Assembly (NCBI RefSeq): GCF_000407165.1
Contig: NZ_KE136479.1
Location: 1-64,000 of the forward strand
Origin: Enterococcus haemoperoxidus ATCC BAA-382
Lineage (GTDB): Bacteria; Bacillota; Bacilli; Lactobacillales; Enterococcaceae
Direction of reading: 5' to 3'
Length of the DNA stretch: 64,000 nt
Part shown: positions 19,233 to 53,038 of the stretch, in pieces
Position numbering within the stretch: position 1 is the stretch's first letter
Layout: each line of letters opens with the position of its first letter
Notes under the pieces: generated by a model
What the model was told of the DNA's origin: nothing
The model's database searches: none
The model's input: only the letters and a program-made list of their open reading frames with translations
Program-made: the position numbers and the translations under genes

Positions 19233-22200
19233 ATGAAAATCGGAAAAAAGTCTTATATTGTTTTTGGATTGGTTTTATTGGTGGGAATTCTCTGTACGGT
19301 TGTATGGCATAATACTACACTTACGAAAGCTTCAGAAGAAAAATTTTCCATTAAAACTGAATCAATAAATGAATCTGGGGAAATACCAGTAACATTAACG
19401 ATTTCTGAACCGAAAAATGAACAGCTAAAGCTTTCGTTTGAAGGAGTTTATGAAGTAAAAGCCGATGAATTATTAGCTGGTCTTTCTGATAACTATGATG
19501 GGACAGTATCAATAGAAGCTGTGGATGAAACGAGTGTTAAACTTACAACCAAAAATTATGAGGAGTCTTTAAAAATCAGTTTTATAGTTAGGCCATTAAA
19601 TCAGGCTGAAACAGGCAAGCTCGTACTGTCTAATTCAGCAGGGGAAGAGTTGGCAACTAGTAAACTAAGTTTTTCTGAAAAAAAGACTAAGCTAGATGAA
19701 AATATTTTAGCGGATAACCTATCTTTGCTTAAAACCACAAGAACTGGAATAACCAGAGATGAGATTAGCGGACCAATTCCAGCTACACCGGAAGAAAAGG
19801 CTGCAGCAAATGAAGCGGCTAATACTAGATTTGGTTTTGACCCATCACAAAATTCAGTAACAGTTGATACTTGGGCAGACTTTAAACTTGCTTATCAGAA
19901 TAATGCTGTTACAAAAATTACGATGACAAATAATATCTCAAACAGAGCCGTGAGCGGAGCTGCTGGAAACCTGGGTGAAAGATCCAAGTCCATTGAAATT
20001 GATGGTGGTGGTTTTTTACTTGATTTAAATGATCAAACACTTCGTTTAGCAGGTACACCAACAGATGGAATTGGTTTTGTCCATGTGCATAACATGTCTA
20101 TCAAGCAAAATGTAACTGATGCTGGTTACAATGGTGGAACTTATAGTTGGGCATTTATCATGGGAAATAATGGGACTGCTTCTGCAAGAAACTGGTACTT
20201 TAGAGTTGGAGATATTCGTAGTTTTGAAGAGGTCAATGGTGAAAAAATTGCCCGTTTGATTCGTGGTACACGTAGTGAAATCACAGTTTACGGGAAAATG
20301 ACCCTATACACAACGTCTGAAAACTTTTATGCGGGAAGCGTCATTATTGAAGATGGGACAGAATGGTATGGCGTAAATACAACATCGCCTTGGTCTTTGG
20401 TCTGGTATGAGCAAAATTCCTCAGGAACAGATACGGGTGCGGCTCAGAAATATATTGTAGGAAAGCATAGTTATATTTACCTACAAAATAGAGGGAACAA
20501 CCCGACTTATCCATCTGTATTCAGTTACTATAAAGAATTAGAGGTTGGAGAAAACTCGATTTATAATGCAAATATGGCTGGAAATTCTGTAAGATTCGAT
20601 AATCCGGGAGTTATGACTGTAAAAGCAAATGCAGTAGTCAATTTGCTGAGTCGCGGAACAGGTGAAGTTCTTCAGTATTCTTCAAATGATGCTTCAGTAG
20701 TTGTTGAACCAACAGGAAGTTTATATGTTGTTGGGAATACGACTGGAGGAGTTGTTGGTTTAAATGGTGGAAACAATCGCTCACTAACGTTAAATTCACC
20801 TAAAGGATATGATATTCGAAACCGAAACAACAGTGGAAGAGCGATTGCAATGACAGCTGTTGCAACACAAACATTCAATATAAATGATTCTGATATTGAC
20901 TTATGGACTGTTGGTAAGGATATGTCTGGACCTTCGCAAGAAACCTATGCTTTAGTTACAAACTTCACTTCTACTGGTACGAATGTGATTACTACTTCTG
21001 AACCAGGGTTACAAACGTTTAGATACGCAAACTATCGAAGAATTACAGGGATGAATTCTAAGCCTACGATGGAATGGACACCAGTGACTGATGCAGATAA
21101 AACATATCAAGCAAAGGTCAAAATTGGGATGACTCCGTCAGACGACTTTGATGAAAATGGTAACGTTGTTTTAGTTCCAGTGTATGCTTCTAAAGGTCAA
21201 GCATCTGTCACATATACAGATACTTTCAATGATGCACACACCGCGTCAACTTTAGATGATGGTTTAGCACCATTTACTGATACAAAATTCAATATTGCTG
21301 GTAAACAAATCAGTGCTCATGCAATTAGAGGTCCGTGGCTATCGGAACCTGATGAAGTAACAACAGTTATTGATGTTACACCTCCAGAACCGGCAGTTGT
21401 AACGGGTGGTAAGGTAACAAATGCAATGAAACAGCTAAGTGGTAAAGAGGCTGAACCAAAAGCAAAAATTTACCTTGATATCAACGGTGTTCGTCAGAGT
21501 GCGGTAGGCACTGTCAATGACGATGGAACATGGACATACAATCTACCTCATTATTTAGAAAAAGGCGATACAATCCAAATTTTCTTAGAAGATAATGCTG
21601 GGAGAGTTACTGAAACACTAACTCCAGCAGCACCATCAACTAATAGTGATACTGGTAATATCAATCCAGCAGCAAATATGACCTATCGTGATGCAACGTT
21701 TAAAGCTGCAACAAAGTATACAGTAGAAGATGTTCTTCCCGATAAACCACTGATGGAAAAAACAGTTACTTCTTCAGGAGGCGCTACAACGCAAGTTGGT
21801 GATAACTTGACGTACACGTTAACAGCTAAAAACAATAAAGAAGAGTCCTATACTACATTATGGGCGAATACTGTTGTGACAGATACGATTCCTTCAGGCT
21901 TAGATTTTGATCCAGCAACGGCTGAAATCAAAATTGACGGAGTTGCTGCTGAAACGCCAAAAGATTATTCCTATGATTCTAACTCACGAGTATTAACAGT
22001 TAAATTGGGAAATCTAGCATCTGGGGAATCATCAGTTATCACCTTTAAAGCCCAAGTTGCTTCTTCTGCTGTAGGGACTGTAATTAGTAATATAGCAGAT
22101 ATAGTTGGTGATTCACCAAGAGAAATGCCATTTGTTGAAGGTCCGATTGATCCAGATGCTAAACATGAAACTTACAATGCCACCTCTCAGGAAGCTAAAA

Positions 22201-22661
22201 ACCCTGGTGGCACAGTCTTTGGTGTTCTAGAATTAGCTTCTGCACCAACAGAGATTGACTTTGGCAGCGTGAAGTATCAAGGGAAGAAGACTCGTATCAA
22301 TTCTGCTGAACATCGTGGAGCAGATTTAGTGATCAAAGACAGCCGAGCCAATAAAAAAGGATGGTCATTGACTGCCAAACTTACAACGCCGATGACAAAC
22401 CAGAATCCTGATGTACCAGAATACACATTGGATGGTGCGCTCAAATATGTTTACAAAAATAAGGAGATCACCTTGAATGGCGGTGCTCAGGATATTATGA
22501 TACAAAATGCTAATGCTTCAACAGCAGAAACAACCTATAACATTAGTGATACGTGGTCTGAATCTGGAGATGGCTTCAAATTTGAAACCTCAGCTCAAGA
22601 TGTAAAAGCATTAGGTACTTACCAAGGTGAGATTCTCTGGGAATTGGGCGATACTCCATAA
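19233..22661 (+). CDS. Large WxL-domain surface protein (CscC-like)
   Basis: 1142 aa; ATG after GGGGAGGAG. Signal peptide about 1-33. Residues about 205-600 hold a parallel-beta (pectate-lyase-like) adhesin region starting DTWADFKLAY with LTNN-type repeats. An Ig-like stretch follows at 690-790. A DUF11-type domain (about 841-950, VGDNLTYTLTAKN, LDFDPATAEI) comes next, then the C-terminal WxL domain (about 996-1142) with its motifs GWSLTAKL and ILWELGDTP. WxL domains bind peptidoglycan non-covalently and work in complexes with small WxL proteins and DUF916 proteins. First gene of the csc-type operon. Confidence 0.92.
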   Translation: MKIGKKSYIVFGLVLLVGILCTVVWHNTTLTKASEEKFSIKTESINESGEIPVTLTISEPKNEQLKLSFEGVYEVKADELLAGLSDNYDGTVSIEAVDETSVKLTTKNYEESLKISFIVRPLNQAETGKLVLSNSAGEELATSKLSFSEKKTKLDENILADNLSLLKTTRTGITRDEISGPIPATPEEKAAANEAANTRFGFDPSQNSVTVDTWADFKLAYQNNAVTKITMTNNISNRAVSGAAGNLGERSKSIEIDGGGFLLDLNDQTLRLAGTPTDGIGFVHVHNMSIKQNVTDAGYNGGTYSWAFIMGNNGTASARNWYFRVGDIRSFEEVNGEKIARLIRGTRSEITVYGKMTLYTTSENFYAGSVIIEDGTEWYGVNTTSPWSLVWYEQNSSGTDTGAAQKYIVGKHSYIYLQNRGNNPTYPSVFSYYKELEVGENSIYNANMAGNSVRFDNPGVMTVKANAVVNLLSRGTGEVLQYSSNDASVVVEPTGSLYVVGNTTGGVVGLNGGNNRSLTLNSPKGYDIRNRNNSGRAIAMTAVATQTFNINDSDIDLWTVGKDMSGPSQETYALVTNFTSTGTNVITTSEPGLQTFRYANYRRITGMNSKPTMEWTPVTDADKTYQAKVKIGMTPSDDFDENGNVVLVPVYASKGQASVTYTDTFNDAHTASTLDDGLAPFTDTKFNIAGKQISAHAIRGPWLSEPDEVTTVIDVTPPEPAVVTGGKVTNAMKQLSGKEAEPKAKIYLDINGVRQSAVGTVNDDGTWTYNLPHYLEKGDTIQIFLEDNAGRVTETLTPAAPSTNSDTGNINPAANMTYRDATFKAATKYTVEDVLPDKPLMEKTVTSSGGATTQVGDNLTYTLTAKNNKEESYTTLWANTVVTDTIPSGLDFDPATAEIKIDGVAAETPKDYSYDSNSRVLTVKLGNLASGESSVITFKAQVASSAVGTVISNIADIVGDSPREMPFVEGPIDPDAKHETYNATSQEAKNPGGTVFGVLELASAPTEIDFGSVKYQGKKTRINSAEHRGADLVIKDSRANKKGWSLTAKLTTPMTNQNPDVPEYTLDGALKYVYKNKEITLNGGAQDIMIQNANASTAETTYNISDTWSESGDGFKFETSAQDVKALGTYQGEILWELGDTP

Positions 22662-22683
22662 GAGTAAAGGAGATTTTTAATTT

Positions 22684-23037
22684 ATGAAAAAAATAATCAA
22701 ATCTACAATCATCTCCTTTACTTTTGCGTTAACGTTGGCACTCACCTATCCACTGAATGCTGCGGCTAAAGCAAATGGAGGAGAAGTTCAAACTAATGGT
22801 GTCATCAGCTTTTATGAAGAGAGTTCTTCAACTGAAATCTCCAGTACAACAGAATCTTCTTCTATATTAGAACCATCAACAAGTGAACCAAAAGTGGTGA
22901 AACCTGTTGGTCGTTATCCAAGTACAGGTGAGATGGTGAAGACAAGTCTTGTCTTTACAGGGATTGCTTTAGTAGTGATTGGTTTACTTCTGTTTTTCTG
23001 GAAACGTAAGAAAGAGCATGAAGGGCGGGATGAATGA
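22684..23037 (+). CDS. Small LPXTG-like wall-anchored protein (CscD-like)
   Basis: 117 aa. Signal peptide 1-28 (NAAAKA), a Ser/Thr-rich middle, then a sorting-signal-like tail: RYPSTGE (78-82 YPSTG), a hydrophobic span (about 87-105) and KRKKE. The motif differs from canonical LPXTG at its first position. Csc clusters usually include such a small sortase-type protein. The next gene overlaps by 4 nt (ATGA), so translation is probably coupled. Confidence 0.82.
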   Translation: MKKIIKSTIISFTFALTLALTYPLNAAAKANGGEVQTNGVISFYEESSSTEISSTTESSSILEPSTSEPKVVKPVGRYPSTGEMVKTSLVFTGIALVVIGLLLFFWKRKKEHEGRDE

Positions 23038-23846
23038 TGGAAAAAAAATCTAAACTAATTTCGTCACTTATTTTATCGCTCGCAGTATTATCTTCATTAT
23101 CATGGGGACACACTCAGGTTTATGCTGAAACGGGATCAATCAATGGTTCTGGCACCATTAAATTTGAGGGAGAATATCCTCAAAATATTGTTGACCCTGA
23201 AAAACCGGGTGAAATTGTTGATCCTGGTGAATCTCCTAAATTAGAGGGAGATTTAAGAATCGATTTTGTGCCAAGATTCGATTTTTACCAGAATAAAATT
23301 TCTAATAAAGATGAAGTCTATTACGCGAATGCCCAAAATTTCTTTGGTGCAACGAAGCCTAGAGGGAATTTTGTTCAGGTTACTGACTTGAGACAAAAGC
23401 CGACAGGTTGGACTTTACAGCTTCGTCAAGAAATGCAATTCACCAACAATGATACAAAAAATAAAGAAATCAAAGGCGCAATGCTTTCACTAGATAAATC
23501 TTGGGTGAATTCTACCAAAAACCTTATTGAGGCTCCACAGTTGTCAAAAGAAATTATTAACATAGACAATGTGGGCGCTTCATACAATTTAGCTCAAGCT
23601 AGTTCAGGACAGGGCAGTGGAACTTGGACAATTTCCTTTGGTGCATCAGAAGAAAATAATAGTAACCAAAAGAACACCTTAGAGCCAAGACTGGATAAGG
23701 AAGGGCAAGCAGTGCTTGATCCAATCTTTGATCAAAAACCTGTCTATCAAAATAGAGCAGTTTCATTATCGATACCGGGAACAGCGATAGTTGAGCCGGT
23801 ACCGTACACTACGGTGTTAACTTGGATATTAGCCGAGTTGCCATAA
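23034..23846 (+). CDS. WxL-domain surface protein (CscB-like)
   Basis: 270 aa; the ATG overlaps the previous stop. Signal peptide 1-31 (VYAETG). Acidic Pro-rich linker VDPEKPGEIVDPGESP, then a WxL domain with both motifs: GWTLQLRQEM (about 120) and TWILAELP at the C-terminus. Expected to sit on peptidoglycan together with the large WxL protein and the DUF916 protein. Closely related in layout to the next gene, a likely tandem duplicate that has diverged. Confidence 0.9.
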   Translation: MMEKKSKLISSLILSLAVLSSLSWGHTQVYAETGSINGSGTIKFEGEYPQNIVDPEKPGEIVDPGESPKLEGDLRIDFVPRFDFYQNKISNKDEVYYANAQNFFGATKPRGNFVQVTDLRQKPTGWTLQLRQEMQFTNNDTKNKEIKGAMLSLDKSWVNSTKNLIEAPQLSKEIINIDNVGASYNLAQASSGQGSGTWTISFGASEENNSNQKNTLEPRLDKEGQAVLDPIFDQKPVYQNRAVSLSIPGTAIVEPVPYTTVLTWILAELP

Positions 23847-23849
23847 ATA

Positions 23850-23871
23850 ACACACACACAAACACACACAA
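23850..23871 (+). repeat. CA-dinucleotide tract before a WxL gene
   Basis: Alternating CA for 22 nt with one AA interruption, ending about 6 nt before the AGGAGG of the next gene; more CA follows directly before its ATG. Slippage here would change leader length but not a reading frame. Confidence 0.7.
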
Positions 23872-23889
23872 TACTAGGAGGAAACACAC

Positions 23890-24663
23890 ATGAAAACAAA
23901 AACATTATGTTCAGTAGCTTTATTAGCAGTAGTAGGAGCAAGCTTATCTTTACCAGCAGCAGCAAACGCTGAAGCAAAATCACAAGCAGCAGAGGGTACA
24001 ATGACTTTTACAGAAGATAACGATCCTAAAGATATAGTTGACCCGGAAGATCCAGAGAAACCAATCGTAGAACCAAAAGAACCAATCATCATTAACCCAG
24101 ATCGCGGTTCATTCAGTATCGATGCTGTAACAAAATTGGATTTTGGTACTGATAAAGTTAAAGCTTTTGCAGAAAACCCTGAATATTATGCAGCAGCAAT
24201 TCCAGCAAAAAATGCTGATGGCGATATCACTCGTGGAAACTTTGTTCAATTCACAGACGTACGTGGTACAGCAAACCATAAATATACAGTAAGTGCACAA
24301 TTAACAAAACAATTTGAAGCGGGCGCAAATGCCGGTACTTTCTTGAAAGGTGCTACAATTGACTATTCAAATGCAGTAATCACTTCTAAAGATCCAGCGG
24401 CTCAATGGCCAGCGACTACAGTTGCAGGATTTCAATTAGCACCTGATGCAGCAGGAACAGGTACTGGAGATTCAGTTCCAGTATTAGAAAACAAAGATGC
24501 CTCAAAAGGTATCGGAACTTATACAATTGAATTTGGTCAATATGGTGACGGAACTGCTGATACAACAGCTGACTCTGTTAAATTAACTGTACCAAATACA
24601 AATATTTTATTAGCTGATACTTACACAGCTGAAATCACTTGGTCAATTGCTGAAGTATTATAA
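23890..24663 (+). CDS. WxL-domain surface protein with degenerate motifs
   Basis: 257 aa. AGGAGG lies 8 nt before the ATG. Signal peptide about 1-28 (AANAEA), acidic Pro-rich linker VDPEDPEKPIVEPKEP, then a WxL-type domain. The first motif reads HKYTVSAQL (Tyr-x-Val instead of Trp-x-Leu) and the second ITWSIAEVL (Trp-x-Ile). The rest of the fold (RGNFVQFTDVRG, IGTYTIEFGQ) still matches. Codon use is strongly biased, suggesting high expression. A terminator follows, so it may be the most abundant product of the cluster. Confidence 0.88.
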   Translation: MKTKTLCSVALLAVVGASLSLPAAANAEAKSQAAEGTMTFTEDNDPKDIVDPEDPEKPIVEPKEPIIINPDRGSFSIDAVTKLDFGTDKVKAFAENPEYYAAAIPAKNADGDITRGNFVQFTDVRGTANHKYTVSAQLTKQFEAGANAGTFLKGATIDYSNAVITSKDPAAQWPATTVAGFQLAPDAAGTGTGDSVPVLENKDASKGIGTYTIEFGQYGDGTADTTADSVKLTVPNTNILLADTYTAEITWSIAEVL

Positions 24664-24725
24664 TTTAAACTAAATAATAGGTTGGATTATAAATGATGCT
24701 TTAAGTAGTCATGTTTCAAATGAAT

Positions 24726-24768
24726 GGCGAGACAGAAATTAAAAAGTATTTCTGTCTCTGCCTTTTTA
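24726..24768 (+). terminator. Internal terminator in the WxL cluster
   Basis: GGCGAGACAGAAAT pairs with ATTTCTGTCTCTGCC (one bulge), followed by T5. It lies 16 nt before the DUF916 start codon, so the three downstream genes are expressed by read-through or from another promoter. Confidence 0.75.
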
Positions 24769-24783
24769 AAGGGAGGGATATCG

Positions 24784-25854
24784 ATGAATAAAAAGAATCT
24801 ATTATTTTTATTAACAACAGTTATTATAGCAGTATTTCTGCCAGTCACAACCTATGCAGAAGACAGCAGTAGCGGCAACGCAACTGGCTTTACATATGAA
24901 TCAATTAAACCGGACAATCAAAGAGATACAGGGGCAGGTTACTTTGATTTAAGGATGACGCCTGGTCAAAAACAAACGGTCAAAATCAAAATCAAAAATT
25001 TAGCTGCAGAAGAAATCGAAGTCTCTGTAAAACTCAATAGTACAAAAACAAATGCGAACGGAGTTGTAGAATACGGTCCAACGACAATAAAAAATGATAA
25101 GTCGCTAAAATATGATTTTGAAAAAATAGTTAAAGCACCTGAGACAGTTAAAGTACCAGCAAAAGGTGAACAGGATATTGACATAGAAATAAATATGCCA
25201 GAAGCCTCATTCGATGGAATGATTGCAGGTGGGATTCAACTTCAAAAAGTTGAAAAAGAACAGAAAAATGAACCGAAAAAAACAGGAGTTATCAACAAAT
25301 ATGCTTATGTTATTGGGATGATCCTTACGGAAACAGATAAAGAAATACTACCAAATTTAGAATTAAACAAAGTGTATGTTGATTTAAATAACTTTAGAAA
25401 TACCTTTTTCGTCAACTTTTCTAATGTTGAAGCAGCTTATTTAGAAAACATGACAACACAAGTTCAGATCATGAAAGAGGATAGTGACGAAGTATTATAT
25501 GAAACTAAACGTTCAGGTATGCGAATGGCACCCAATACATTGATCAATTTTCCAGTTAGTATGGAAGGAGATCGGATGGTAGCGGGAAATTACCGTGCGA
25601 AGATCCTTGTAACAGCTGGGGACAAAAAATGGAACTGGGATGAAAACTTTAAAATCACAGATGAGGAAGCAGATAAGTTCAATAATCAGGATGCTGGTTT
25701 AGAAGATGTTCAAACGTTCAACTGGAAATTAATCGCAGGGATTATCGGTGGGGTCGTTGTTTTAGCAGTAATTATTTTTCTAGTAATCAGAACGATCGTC
25801 AAAAAGAAACAAGCAAAAAAAAAGCTAGCAAGAAAAAAGAAGTCAAGAAAATAA
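24784..25854 (+). CDS. DUF916/DUF3324 protein, WxL-interacting (CscA-like)
   Basis: 356 aa. The ATG at 24784 follows GGGAGGG; an upstream in-frame ATG lies in the terminator hairpin. Signal peptide 1-25 (TYAED). DUF916 (about 30-165, YFDLRMTPGQKQTVKIKIKN) is followed by DUF3324 (about 180-300, GVINKYAYVIGM). A C-terminal membrane span (about 318-340) and a poly-Lys tail follow. These membrane-tethered proteins bind WxL proteins and peptidoglycan, holding the complex at the surface. A standard partner in csc clusters. Confidence 0.92.
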   Translation: MNKKNLLFLLTTVIIAVFLPVTTYAEDSSSGNATGFTYESIKPDNQRDTGAGYFDLRMTPGQKQTVKIKIKNLAAEEIEVSVKLNSTKTNANGVVEYGPTTIKNDKSLKYDFEKIVKAPETVKVPAKGEQDIDIEINMPEASFDGMIAGGIQLQKVEKEQKNEPKKTGVINKYAYVIGMILTETDKEILPNLELNKVYVDLNNFRNTFFVNFSNVEAAYLENMTTQVQIMKEDSDEVLYETKRSGMRMAPNTLINFPVSMEGDRMVAGNYRAKILVTAGDKKWNWDENFKITDEEADKFNNQDAGLEDVQTFNWKLIAGIIGGVVVLAVIIFLVIRTIVKKKQAKKKLARKKKSRK

Positions 25855-48784: not shown

Positions 48785-51421
48785 ATGAAAAAAAATATAC
48801 ACTTGATATTTACCTGTTTTATTATAGTAATAATTTTTCCGATTGATTGGTCCTACGCCATAGAAATTGAAAAACCTGCTATAGAGACATCGTCAACAAC
48901 TGAAGTGATTGAAGAGGATGTAACATCAGATTCGTCAGAAATGCCAGTCAGTGATTCTTCATCTAGTCAGGAATCAACAATGGAAGAAGTTATAGAAAAT
49001 GAAAAAATAACGGATAGTAATGATATAAATGACGATATTTCTGAAATAAACAGTAAAAATATGGTGAAAGCAGTTGCTACACAAGATGCAGATGGCTTCT
49101 GGTTAGTTGATTCAGCTGCTACTTTGACTGAATATTTAAAGGATAGTCAGAAGCTGAAATTTCGTTTAACCAATAATATCGACTTAGGCTCCACTGGTTA
49201 TCAGCTTAAAGATGGTGTGATTATCGATGGTGCAAATCATATTATTACATATAATAAAGGGGCTTCAGCTACTAGTGGTTTTTATGCAAATCAAGCAAAT
49301 GCCGTAATTGAGATTCGTAATACACAGTTTGGAAATCTTGATGGTTCAGGCGCAGTGGGGTATTATGGCTTTTTATCTGGAGGAGCCGCGGCTAATATGA
49401 CATTTATCTTTGATGGTGTCGATTATTATTCAACAAATGGTCAAATGATCTATAACATAAACGGATCGGTCATTATGCGAGGGCAAAATACGATCGACCA
49501 AAGAGGAACAAGTACATATTCCCAAGAATGGGCAGAAATCAATTACGTAGAAATTCAAAGAGGTCATACTTCGATCAAACATTCTTCCAATCAAACAAGT
49601 GCATTTATTTGGTCAACTAGTAACTCTTCAGCTAATCCTTATGCAGGTAAATCCCAAATCATAGTTAGAGAAAATGCACAACTTGATATCCAAACAAACA
49701 GTAATATGACGTATGGCACGTTGTCGCCAAATTATATCGTTGAAAAAAATGCTGTTTTCAATTTGGACAAGGTGACACTTGCTACAGGAGGTGCAAGAAA
49801 TCAATTTTTTGCATCGGCTCAAACACAACCAGTAACATTTGATTTCCAAGAAAATGCTCAAGTCGATTTTAAACTCCCTTCACCAATCAATCTCTATACG
49901 GCTAAAGGTGGAATGACAGTCGCTGAAAATGCAGATGTCTCACTAGATGTTGTTAGTGGCACTATCTTTTCAACTGCTTCGTCTAGTACATTTGCACTTA
50001 ACATGAACAAAGCAAAAAAAGTGTCGCTTGCAGGAACGAGTCTGGGAACTTTGGGGCTAAATGGGGCAAATGGTGTAAAGAATTTATCTTTTACAAGTAA
50101 CTTTTTACAAAAAATAGAAACCTTTTCAAGTAAAACAAGCAGTACACCGACACAAGAAATATTTAAAAAAGCTTCAGATTTGAGTGTTCAAGGAACGAAC
50201 TTTACAAATATACAAGGTTCGAGTAATCCATTTAGTGCATCAGAAATACTTGCTTTAAAAAATGCACAGAAAATGGTGTTTAGCGAGTTTGTTGATGTTC
50301 CAGATCAATTAGGGCTATTTGCATATGATGCATCCGATACGTCAATTTCATTACATGGAAGCTCGGTGAATAATGGAAGTCAAGCAACAGAAGTAAAATT
50401 CTTTATTTTTTCTGCTGAAGAAGAGGCAAATGATCTAAGAAATGCAAGGCAAATCGTTACGTTAAGATCGTTTGATGATCAAGAAAACACAGCGCTTAAT
50501 TCATATTATAATGTCACCGTAGATGGCTTAAATCCAAACACCGTTTATTGGGTTCAAATGATTGTTGTTAACCGAGCAGGGGAAAGTGAATTTTCTGATA
50601 CTGAACTATTTGCTACCAAGCCACAACTAAGTACCCTTACAGCTAACGTCACAAACACTACCGCAATCATCAATGGTGAGCTAGCTAGTGATACAGGGAA
50701 GTGGACTGATTATTCAAATGGAGAAGCAGCAGCAATACCTGATCAACAGGCTTATTTTGGCGGTATGTATCGAAAAGTCACAATAGAGTATAGTAAAAAT
50801 AAGGACTTTCCAGAAAATGAAACAAAAGCTCAAGTCGCTGATCTTTCTGGCAATAAGAATCAAAAATTTAGTACGAAATTAAAAGGACTCGAAGGCGAGG
50901 TCACTTATTATGTTCGTGTTAGAGTTGCAGGAGTTTATGGAGAAGAAGTTGTTTTGGCGATGAACCCTTTAACTGAATTTCAAACAGTGACAGAGATAAT
51001 CAACGTTGAAGTTCCTATCGAAATGGCTTTTCAAACCCAAAATAAAGATTTAGGAACCTTAAATGAAGGCAATGTATCTTCAGCTGAATATCCTGTTATA
51101 AACAAAGGGAATACACCAACAAAAATATCCATAACCAATCTAACAAAAGAAAATACAGCAGCTAATCAACTGTTGCTATTAGATAGTCTTTCTGGAAATC
51201 CAGGCAAAGATGAACTAGCGCTGCAAATGCTAGTAAACAACAAACAGGAAGCACCACTTTTTTTAACGAGTGAATTATCTAAGAATCCTTTATCGATTGG
51301 CGTTTTAAACGTGAATGAAGAAAAAAAATTGAGCTTGCAAGGCAAGTACTTTAATCCAACGAAACAAGCAGTATTTCCAAACTACAAAGTGACTTTTAAA
51401 GTTGAAAAAAATGAAGAATGA
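48785..51421 (+). CDS. Large surface protein with pectate-lyase-like fold
   Basis: 878 aa. Signal peptide 1-26 (WSYAIE), an acidic Ser/Glu linker (30-90), then a parallel-beta adhesin region from about 101. It shares the layout of the large WxL protein at 19233 (DSAATLTEYLKDS, FRLTNNIDL, VIIDGANH versus DTWADFKLAY, TMTNNIS, IEIDGGG). Fibronectin-like repeats are at about 515-735. The C-terminal part (about 739-878) lacks WxL motifs but parallels the protein at 52035. No LPXTG or membrane tail, so it should be held by partner proteins. First gene of the second surface cluster. Confidence 0.83.
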   Translation: MKKNIHLIFTCFIIVIIFPIDWSYAIEIEKPAIETSSTTEVIEEDVTSDSSEMPVSDSSSSQESTMEEVIENEKITDSNDINDDISEINSKNMVKAVATQDADGFWLVDSAATLTEYLKDSQKLKFRLTNNIDLGSTGYQLKDGVIIDGANHIITYNKGASATSGFYANQANAVIEIRNTQFGNLDGSGAVGYYGFLSGGAAANMTFIFDGVDYYSTNGQMIYNINGSVIMRGQNTIDQRGTSTYSQEWAEINYVEIQRGHTSIKHSSNQTSAFIWSTSNSSANPYAGKSQIIVRENAQLDIQTNSNMTYGTLSPNYIVEKNAVFNLDKVTLATGGARNQFFASAQTQPVTFDFQENAQVDFKLPSPINLYTAKGGMTVAENADVSLDVVSGTIFSTASSSTFALNMNKAKKVSLAGTSLGTLGLNGANGVKNLSFTSNFLQKIETFSSKTSSTPTQEIFKKASDLSVQGTNFTNIQGSSNPFSASEILALKNAQKMVFSEFVDVPDQLGLFAYDASDTSISLHGSSVNNGSQATEVKFFIFSAEEEANDLRNARQIVTLRSFDDQENTALNSYYNVTVDGLNPNTVYWVQMIVVNRAGESEFSDTELFATKPQLSTLTANVTNTTAIINGELASDTGKWTDYSNGEAAAIPDQQAYFGGMYRKVTIEYSKNKDFPENETKAQVADLSGNKNQKFSTKLKGLEGEVTYYVRVRVAGVYGEEVVLAMNPLTEFQTVTEIINVEVPIEMAFQTQNKDLGTLNEGNVSSAEYPVINKGNTPTKISITNLTKENTAANQLLLLDSLSGNPGKDELALQMLVNNKQEAPLFLTSELSKNPLSIGVLNVNEEKKLSLQGKYFNPTKQAVFPNYKVTFKVEKNEE

Positions 51422-51431
51422 GAGGAATTCT

Positions 51432-51971
51432 ATGGATAAGACAAATCAAACAAATGAAGAGAAGAAGAAAAAGAAACGACTGCTGATTTTATTGCTGTTA
51501 TTCTTGTTAGCTGTATCAGTAGGCGGGTTATATTATTATTTTTCAACTAAAACAGAACCTGTTCAAGTCGTTTCGGGAGAGTATTTGCCAGATACCAAAG
51601 GTGCTAAAAAAATGAGTGACAAAGAAGTTAAAGCAGCTGAACAAAAAGCTGTGGACGAAAGTAAATTCAATATGGTCATTAAATCAGAGGCTGTGTTTGA
51701 AACAAGTGACAGTGAAGGTAGCTTGTACATTCAAAATCCAGTCGAAAACGGTTATCCGATCAATGTGGTGATTCGTTTAGACAGCAATAATGAACAGGTT
51801 TATTCCTCTGGTGCAATTCAACCAGGTTATGAAATAAATGGAGCAAAACTAGAAAAAAAACTTGCTCAAGGAGATCATCCAGCAACTGCCACATTTGATA
51901 TTTATGATTCAAAAACAAACAAGAAACGTGGACAAGTTCAAGCTGGAATTACAATTCGCATCAACAACTAA
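51432..51971 (+). CDS. Membrane-anchored extracellular protein, unknown
   Basis: 179 aa. The ATG at 51432 follows GAGAGGAA; an earlier in-frame ATG overlaps the previous gene. Lys-rich cytoplasmic start (KKKKKR), one span (about 16-36), then an outside domain of about 120 residues with a beta-rich pattern (GSLYIQNPVENGYPINVVIRLDS, GDHPATATFDIYDS, GITIRINN). The order of extended strands resembles small Ig-like accessory domains. It may take the place of the DUF916 protein as the membrane link of this cluster (inference). Confidence 0.72.
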   Translation: MDKTNQTNEEKKKKKRLLILLLLFLLAVSVGGLYYYFSTKTEPVQVVSGEYLPDTKGAKKMSDKEVKAAEQKAVDESKFNMVIKSEAVFETSDSEGSLYIQNPVENGYPINVVIRLDSNNEQVYSSGAIQPGYEINGAKLEKKLAQGDHPATATFDIYDSKTNKKRGQVQAGITIRINN

Positions 51972-52034
51972 TCTCGTTATTTAACAGATTTTCTGTTAAA
52001 AATAAATCATCTTACACATAGAAGGAGAAACAAT

Positions 52035-52691
52035 ATGAAAAAAACTAACTTTTTACTTGCTGCAATGATGCTAGGTCTAAGCGTATCAGGACTAACACAA
52101 CTAGCTTCAGCAGAAACCATCGATGGAGAAAATTCAGCTGATGTTATCATCAACGGAACAATTGGTAAACTAGACAATACTGATCCAGATGCGACTATTC
52201 CAGAAGGTTCTGATGAATGGATCAACGTTACGGTCGATACAGCGACAGCATTTCATACAACGACTGCAAGTGCACACAAGAATATTCAGTCTGCTGATTA
52301 TAGTATCGTGAATAATTCAGGTCGTGGTGTTGCTGTTACATTGAATAAAATGGAGGGAACACCTAAGTATGTCGATACGTTAACAATCAATGCAAAGGGG
52401 AGTGGTTTAGTTGCGACTCCTACTGCGACTAATTTGGTTGAAAACAATGCTTTAGTTGATTTGACAAGTGCGCCAGTTTGGATGCGTTTAGCTAATAAGG
52501 ATGGGCGTTTAAATATCGCTAGTGACGCTGCTTCAGCATATGCAAATTCTGCAAAATTTAATTATACTGGGACAACAACCGCTAACTTGCCAATTGACGT
52601 CAATGAAAATGCAGCAAAAGAAAACTACACATTAACATTGAAATTCACATCGATCCAAAAAGACGGTACAACAATTGGTGTAACGCCATAA
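52035..52691 (+). CDS. Secreted protein with the cluster's shared C-domain
   Basis: 218 aa; AGAAGGAG precedes the ATG. Signal peptide 1-26 (LASAET). Residues about 62-210 parallel the C-terminus of the 878-residue protein: INVTVDTATAFHT versus INVEVPIEMAFQT, SADYSIVNNSG versus SAEYPVINKGN, and YTLTLKFTS versus YKVTFKVEK. No Trp-x-Leu motifs. By layout it is the counterpart of the small WxL proteins of the first cluster. Function unknown; probably a wall-surface subunit. Confidence 0.75.
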   Translation: MKKTNFLLAAMMLGLSVSGLTQLASAETIDGENSADVIINGTIGKLDNTDPDATIPEGSDEWINVTVDTATAFHTTTASAHKNIQSADYSIVNNSGRGVAVTLNKMEGTPKYVDTLTINAKGSGLVATPTATNLVENNALVDLTSAPVWMRLANKDGRLNIASDAASAYANSAKFNYTGTTTANLPIDVNENAAKENYTLTLKFTSIQKDGTTIGVTP

Positions 52692-52714
52692 TCAAACAAA
52701 GGTTGTGATATACA

Positions 52715-53038
52715 ATGAAGCGATTTAGTTGTCACATCATTATATTCATTCTTTTGGCTGGCTGTGGTATCTTGTTTCAAGATTTTGCTTATGCTACTAC
52801 TGATGTAGAGATCCATGGGCGAATCGGTGGAAATGAAAGGCACACACAGCCATCAAAGGAACCAGAATCAAAAACAGATACAAAATTAGCCCAACCAAAA
52901 CAAACACATATAGAACTAACGAAATTTCCTAATACTGGCAGTATCATCGAACAGCTAACGCCCATAGGTTTATTGCTGTTGTTGATTTATTTATTGCTTA
53001 ATCGATGGAAAGCACATAGACATAAACGTTTGGGATAG
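52715..53038 (+). CDS. Small protein with LPXTG-like tail (FPNTG)
   Basis: 107 aa. N-terminal signal sequence with two possible ends: a lipobox-like LAGC (Cys17) or cleavage after AYA (27). Residues 71-75 are FPNTG, followed by a hydrophobic span (about 80-95) and RWKAHRHKR, a sortase-signal layout with Phe for Leu. It is the counterpart of the YPSTG protein at 22684 and closes the second surface cluster. Confidence 0.78.
   Translation: MKRFSCHIIIFILLAGCGILFQDFAYATTDVEIHGRIGGNERHTQPSKEPESKTDTKLAQPKQTHIELTKFPNTGSIIEQLTPIGLLLLLIYLLLNRWKAHRHKRLG

Follow-up and report, generated by a model that had tools for sequence, protein, structure and literature searches.

A cluster of four genes, here termed A, B, C and D, follows the general plan of a csc/WxL locus without a WxL domain and resembles a set of parts for fixing a large adhesin to the cell. 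It lies at positions 48785 to 53038 of the first 64,000 nucleotides of contig NZ_KE136479.1 of Enterococcus haemoperoxidus ATCC BAA-382 (assembly GCF_000407165.1), the stretch analyzed as a whole and referred to below as the window. A single family takes in the small secreted protein C and the C-terminal domain of the adhesin A, the four genes are found together across genomes, the very small protein D carries a short strand like the one at the N-terminus of mature C, and A has no such strand after its signal peptide. We regard it as an even chance that A-B-C-D is an operon for a cell-surface adhesin complex built on the csc/WxL plan, in which an unnamed domain replaces WxL, an unrelated membrane protein replaces WxLIP and the parts are joined by donor-strand complementation. 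The parts of the locus are the following.

48785..51421, + strand: A, large secreted surface protein of 878 amino acids (open reading frame coordinates)
50993..51418, + strand: A residues 737-878, C-terminal domain common to A and C, the acceptor in the proposed model (profile comparisons)
51402..51971, + strand: B, 189 amino acids, N-terminal transmembrane helix and extracellular domain (open reading frame, family profile, locus survey)
52035..52691, + strand: C, small secreted protein of 218 amino acids with signal peptide, N-terminal strand, DNTDP linker and shared domain
52140..52166, + strand: C residues 36-44, DVIINGTIG, N-terminal strand motif, proposed donor strand (hidden Markov model alignment)
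52215..52664, + strand: C residues 61-210, shared domain (profile comparisons and structure model)
52715..53038, + strand: D, 107 amino acids, with signal peptide, short peptide, FPNTG sorting-like motif, C-terminal transmembrane segment and basic tail
52802..52828, + strand: D residues 30-38, DVEIHGRIG, strand motif similar to the C strand (matrix scoring)
52925..52939, + strand: D residues 71-75, FPNTG, sorting-signal-like motif ahead of the transmembrane segment (sequence; NF053819 score)

A domain common to A and C

The C-terminal domain of A and the protein C constitute a single family, which bears no family name in the libraries searched. The preliminary description had pointed to a common pattern in the two window proteins and had set a profile comparison beforehand as its test. 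Taken singly, the pair is faint (BLASTP expectation value, E, of 0.022), and a comparison of A and C with 12-row profiles reaches a probability of 78%. With relatives the sharing becomes clear. A profile made from A tails only, with no C sequence inside, matches the C proteins of other loci at E values down to 1.3e-6 (locus L020), and an iterated hidden Markov model (HMM) of the C family, which picks up A tails during iteration, matches the window A at 9e-17. When the A tails found by this iterated model are compared with the C proteins, the probability is 99.2% (E 8e-20), and it is 99.1% (E 1e-18) after C has been trimmed to its domain and the signal peptides removed. The motifs formerly listed are present approximately, the A and C versions being INVEVPIEMAFQT and INVTVDTATAFHT for the first, SAEYPVIN and SADYSIVN for the second, and YKVTFKV and YTLTLKF for the closing one.

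No Pfam family matches more than one of 33 members of the C family. The weak matches of C to Peptidase_S3 and the Sindbis capsid occur in 1 of the 33, as does a match resembling a carbohydrate-binding module, and all are taken as chance. Sequence searches of solved structures with A and C singly, and with profiles of C and B, returned nothing convincing, and the predicted model of the A domain is of too poor a quality for use. For the C model, the top row of VIA-align is a subunit of an archaeal thread (Saci_0406, 7pnb), a marginal fold match, and the Foldseek rows include TasA, which are not significant on their own.

Conservation and distribution of the cluster

A search of close relatives yielded 11 loci, all from Enterococcus species or Vagococcus salmoninarum; A, B and C have homologs in 11/11 of them and D, by BLASTP, in 10/11. 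At a wider scale, the C profile matches 42 of 295 sampled Lactobacillales genomes, in 13 of 74 genera, the E. haemoperoxidus genome included; a wider B profile matches 57 of the 295, in 21 of the 74 genera, the weakest of them near the threshold. In a sample of 299 genomes of the class, the wider B profile is matched in five: the E. haemoperoxidus genome, two others from its order, and two from other orders, in which the matches are distant B-like frames at E values of about 1e-10 (G729:C95:2548-3096 and G855:C1:670567-671115). A narrow B profile applied to 348 genomes of the phylum is matched in seven, E. haemoperoxidus and six weak cases confined to profile positions 5-64, the transmembrane end.

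For a survey of gene co-occurrence, proposed in the preliminary description, 52 loci were read, comprising the window, the 11 named loci and 40 chosen among the C-profile matches in the Lactobacillales sample. B accompanies C in 51 of these, a protein of more than 500 amino acids lies directly upstream of B in 46 (31 of the 46 being matched by the C-domain HMM), and D was recognized in 43: place and topology identified 39, and four were added after the motif scan described below. The four same-strand genes first reported for the window are hence a conserved set. In five of six A-type proteins of other loci there are mucin- or carbohydrate-binding, MucBP, Big_3, DUF285 or InlB-type B-repeat modules, as would suit an adhesin in which the front varies and the tail does not.

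B and C are also carried on plasmids, in Enterococcus raffinosus, E. gilvus, Melissococcus plutonius and Leuconostoc mesenteroides. In three plasmid regions that were opened, A, B and C are annotated as hypothetical proteins, no A gene being seen in the Leuconostoc region; the E. raffinosus D is annotated as an LPXTG anchor protein. On the E. raffinosus plasmid pCX012922, a gene for an IS110 family transposase lies between B and C (locus L130, 3451-4680).

A strand motif common to C and D

Mature C begins with a short strand, followed by a DNTDP-like linker and then the domain. D is very variable, and its sole conserved extracellular element is a short strand of the form [IV]x[IV]xGx[IL]G that is similar to the N-terminal strand of mature C. 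So that no words were picked by eye, an HMM alignment of 53 C-family proteins supplied the nine columns of the C strand (51 proteins ungapped, 36 unique words), which were made into a matrix, with which the D ectodomains were scored against 1000 shuffles each and clustered at 40% identity. Two candidates were left out before the count, a 70-residue open reading frame overlapping other genes in L020 and one of 59 residues in L127. At p<=0.05, 35 of 39 unclustered D proteins match; after clustering the figures are 15/17 at p<=0.05 and 13/17 at p<=0.01, and the best window falls in the N-terminal half in 17/17. Removal of the C words from loci with a C at least 50% identical to that of E. haemoperoxidus leaves both counts unchanged, at 15/17 and 13/17. 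Among the controls, p<=0.05 is reached by 0/17 B proteins, 1/30 A proteins after the signal peptide, 4/19 D proteins of WxL loci and 10/61 other open reading frames with signal-peptide-like starts. The motif in regular-expression form is found in 0/12 A proteins, and matrix look-alikes inside A are scattered, scoring up to 13.7; after the signal peptide the best is 4.9, none of note.

Other ways of arriving at the motif were tried. One unanchored motif search preferred a VNGWLG-like word and gave a weak signal in D (18/35), and a second preferred the DNTDP linker (3/30 and 1/30 D proteins). The strand result depends on the use of the aligned strand columns. An initial test based on a regular expression (32/36 at p<=0.05) was weakly de-duplicated and was superseded by the HMM-column matrix. 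In a scan of 3424 open reading frames with that matrix, 28 that had not been called A to D score >=9.5, and seven of them, high in the list, were found by inspection to be D-like proteins missed or not reached by the D filter. Two of the seven carry two strand copies 16-17 residues apart (L116 6474-6836 and L109 6190-6537). Another adjoins a small WxL gene in L118, the small WxL protein of which itself scores 15.5, and the D protein of the WxL locus in the window scores 10.2. The motif is therefore not exclusive to the A-D system. The C and D of one locus resemble each other more than permuted pairs do (18 loci; 8 of 5000 permutations reach the value), a likeness from which shared descent has not been removed.

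The strand might also be a relic or a signal, D having arisen from a partial copy of the C N-terminus or both proteins bearing a common export or processing signal, with no strand exchange. In support, the strand comes after the signal peptide in both C and D at many loci. Against it, at least 13 of the 43 D proteins are too short at the front to hold a signal peptide and present the strand at their very start (L050-L054, L056-L058, L063, L064, L112, L115 and L120; a regular expression gave 14, of which L059 was discounted on reading). Moreover, the strand has been kept as D diverged around it, and A and B, which are exported, lack it at that place. We consider this explanation quite unlikely. 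The 13 proteins just listed measure 75-84 amino acids, with the strand first and a sorting-like motif and transmembrane segment last, and they are possibly N-out membrane peptides.

A second alternative is that C and D dock on B by means of this strand, each attaching at the membrane to the extracellular domain of B, and that the domain of A and C has some other role. The good conservation of B and its near-constant presence beside C are in line with this, as is the prediction (PMC10599100) that WxLIP, the positional counterpart of B, pairs with WxL through an inserted strand. Yet a docking tag gives no account of a domain shared by A and C when the strand is confined to C and D, and no relation of B to the WxLIP families can be detected. 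In our judgment it is an unlikely explanation.

Proposed assembly and known strand-exchange systems

Donor-strand complementation assigns a role to each of the four proteins. D would be fixed by its C-terminal anchor, to the wall via sortase where the motif permits and otherwise to the membrane, and would, as an anchored donor, present its strand for a C domain to take up in its groove. C would act as both donor and acceptor, its N-terminal strand being given either to the following C or to the tail domain of A. A would be an acceptor only, terminating the chain and displaying the adhesin, and the membrane-anchored B would receive or hold subunits before assembly, as has been proposed for WxLIP or TapA. 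Every binding step, the order of the steps and any polymer are what we infer here, and the roles of D, C, A and B are assigned because of the precedent of TasA and TapA of Bacillus. Two reports describe TasA fibers in which the N-terminal strand of each subunit completes the next one, and TapA, the N-terminus of which resembles the TasA strand, as the presumed start of the chain (PMC9674648, PMC10151520). The proposed likeness is one of working, with a donor strand at the N-terminus of the subunit and a second, accessory protein that begins with an imitation of it; no sequence relation was found. TapA is not known as a sortase-type mini-protein, and no large adhesin bearing the subunit domain is known in the TasA/TapA system. 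Chaperone-usher pili and the archaeal thread named above offer a donor and acceptor logic like the one proposed here, with an alternating-hydrophobic strand, alternating hydrophobic residues being described for chaperone donor strands (PMC4133393). They differ in that the A-D system has no usher and no periplasm, no sequence homology was found, and the fold match is marginal.

Relation to WxL loci

In csc/WxL loci (CscA/WxLIP, CscB small WxL, CscC large WxL and CscD small LPXTG protein), as in the A-D cluster, a four-part surface operon combines a large adhesin with a C-terminal domain, a small protein of related domain in the same gene cluster, a membrane-anchored partner and a very small C-terminally anchored protein, and both occur in the same genomes. 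The A-D cluster differs in lacking the WxL domain and DUF916/DUF3324, in the transmembrane segment, which is N-terminal in B and C-terminal in WxLIP, and in its strand motif. As the preliminary description had stated for WxL and DUF916, A to D give no match to PF13731 (WxL), DUF916 (PF06030) or DUF3324 (PF11797) at E<=10, in a search where the filters of HMMER discard most weak matches. The 3.58 Mb genome has 73 PF13731 matches, all of them outside the cluster. An apparent homology of C to small WxL proteins, a profile match of 93%, was due to signal peptides and fell to 0.4% on trimming (0.2% for the reversed control); a WxL relation is therefore undetectable by sequence. A WxL protein searched by sequence against PDB gave nothing at E<=1.

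WxLIP genes are present in 41/41 of the other genomes that match the C profile, and the system therefore lives alongside WxL systems. This company, together with the positional analogy to WxL loci, for which binding to peptidoglycan is proposed (PMC9772566), might suggest that the A/C domain itself binds peptidoglycan non-covalently, with D as a minor accessory and the strand as part of a complete C fold. Against it, the sequence relation to WxL disappears with the signal peptides and the strand in D is left unexplained; the probability that we would grant it is small. The anatomy of A to D points instead to a D-C-A strand exchange. The parallel surface cluster envisaged in the preliminary description, with another domain in the place of WxL, is well supported by the shared domain, the conserved four-gene set, the WxLIP genes of the other genomes and the absence of any WxL homology detectable by sequence. 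What has to be given up is the alignment of the N-terminal adhesin regions with those of the first csc/WxL cluster of the window (19233-25854), for which the best BLASTP match (E 0.17) lies outside these regions and the profile probability is 0.9% (0.1% reversed).

Small WxL proteins of the E. haemoperoxidus genome tend to begin with a GxIxF-like word, and several of their CscD-type partners have a similar word. With a motif learned from WxL proteins alone, p<=0.05 is reached by 6/19 D proteins of WxL loci at width 7 and 3/19 at width 9, and by 1/30 D proteins of the new type at either width; an earlier small-WxL matrix gave 4/19 for the WxL loci. WxL loci may, on this weak, suggestive likeness, use the same strand logic with a different motif. 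An extension to both systems can be formulated, in which each would be a donor-strand machine of Gram-positive bacteria whose tiny LPXTG-type protein, fixed covalently or in the membrane, is a donor that mimics the strand with which the small subunit of that locus begins, with chains of small subunits carrying a large acceptor-only adhesin at the tip and the membrane-anchored partner as chaperone. We put this forward as a rather doubtful, though not negligible, proposal that would, if true, unite the two systems.

The E. haemoperoxidus genome holds a large stock of WxL and NF053819-type surface clusters. Besides its 73 WxL matches it has 70 to NF053819, many of which are anchors of other proteins. 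In L101 (1501-2508, near 710494 of G000:C1), one open frame, uninterrupted by a stop, encodes both a small WxL protein and a CscD-like protein that has LPNTG.

The LPXTG-type protein D

The window D ends in FPNTG, a transmembrane segment and a basic tail. It matches NCBIfam NF053819 (EF2685/EF0750 sortase-dependent surface proteins) with 42.8 bits (E 6e-11), below the cut-off of 47, so that D is recognizably alike; it differs in having the [IV]x[IV]xGx[IL]G strand and not the GxIxF-like word of members from WxL loci. An exact LPxTG is found in 11/43 D proteins and a Thr-containing xPxT in 38/43 by a loose regular expression, which counts the L016 protein although its own site is FPNNG. The remaining 5/43, four of them close relatives, have no Thr-containing motif. 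D is LPXTG-like and no more, with FPNTG, a score below the cut-off and a threonine that some close relatives have lost.

A 2006 paper on csc clusters was unable to align the tiny LPXTG-type proteins usefully (PMC1534035). Among the matches listed for open-access PMC, titles and the starts of abstracts hold no description of the A-D cluster or of a strand role for a small LPXTG protein. With the present analysis, roughly one in seven of the sampled Lactobacillales genomes is seen to carry a four-gene adhesin system that has had no name, and a concrete role can be proposed for the tiny proteins of the LPXTG type in such loci. If the strand is read correctly, strand-exchange assembly, known in Bacillus matrix fibers, would reach the sortase-type surface complexes of enterococci and their relatives.

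Gene layout and a further cluster type

All four genes lie on the same strand, with gaps of 63 bases between B and C and 23 bases between C and D; the TTG start called for B makes it overlap the 3' end of A. A consists of a signal peptide, an N-terminal region (residues ~95-500) with no Pfam match, an Fn3-like part (~530-730; fn3 at E 1e-5) and the shared C-terminal domain. A Pfam scan of B, C and D gave no credible match, and the extracellular domain of B, unassigned to a family, is probably beta-rich, to judge from its sequence. A promoter scan was undiscriminating, giving 12 sites, fewer than the 21.1 in shuffles.

Distant B-like genes (E about 1e-16) are present in L131 (3969-4472; G000:C2:642531-642968) and L136 (4867-5493). 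Their neighbors encode a large protein and a small secreted protein, which has an IP-containing N-terminal stretch followed by an xxIxIPSxLxF-like one, and they perhaps represent a third cluster type on the same plan.
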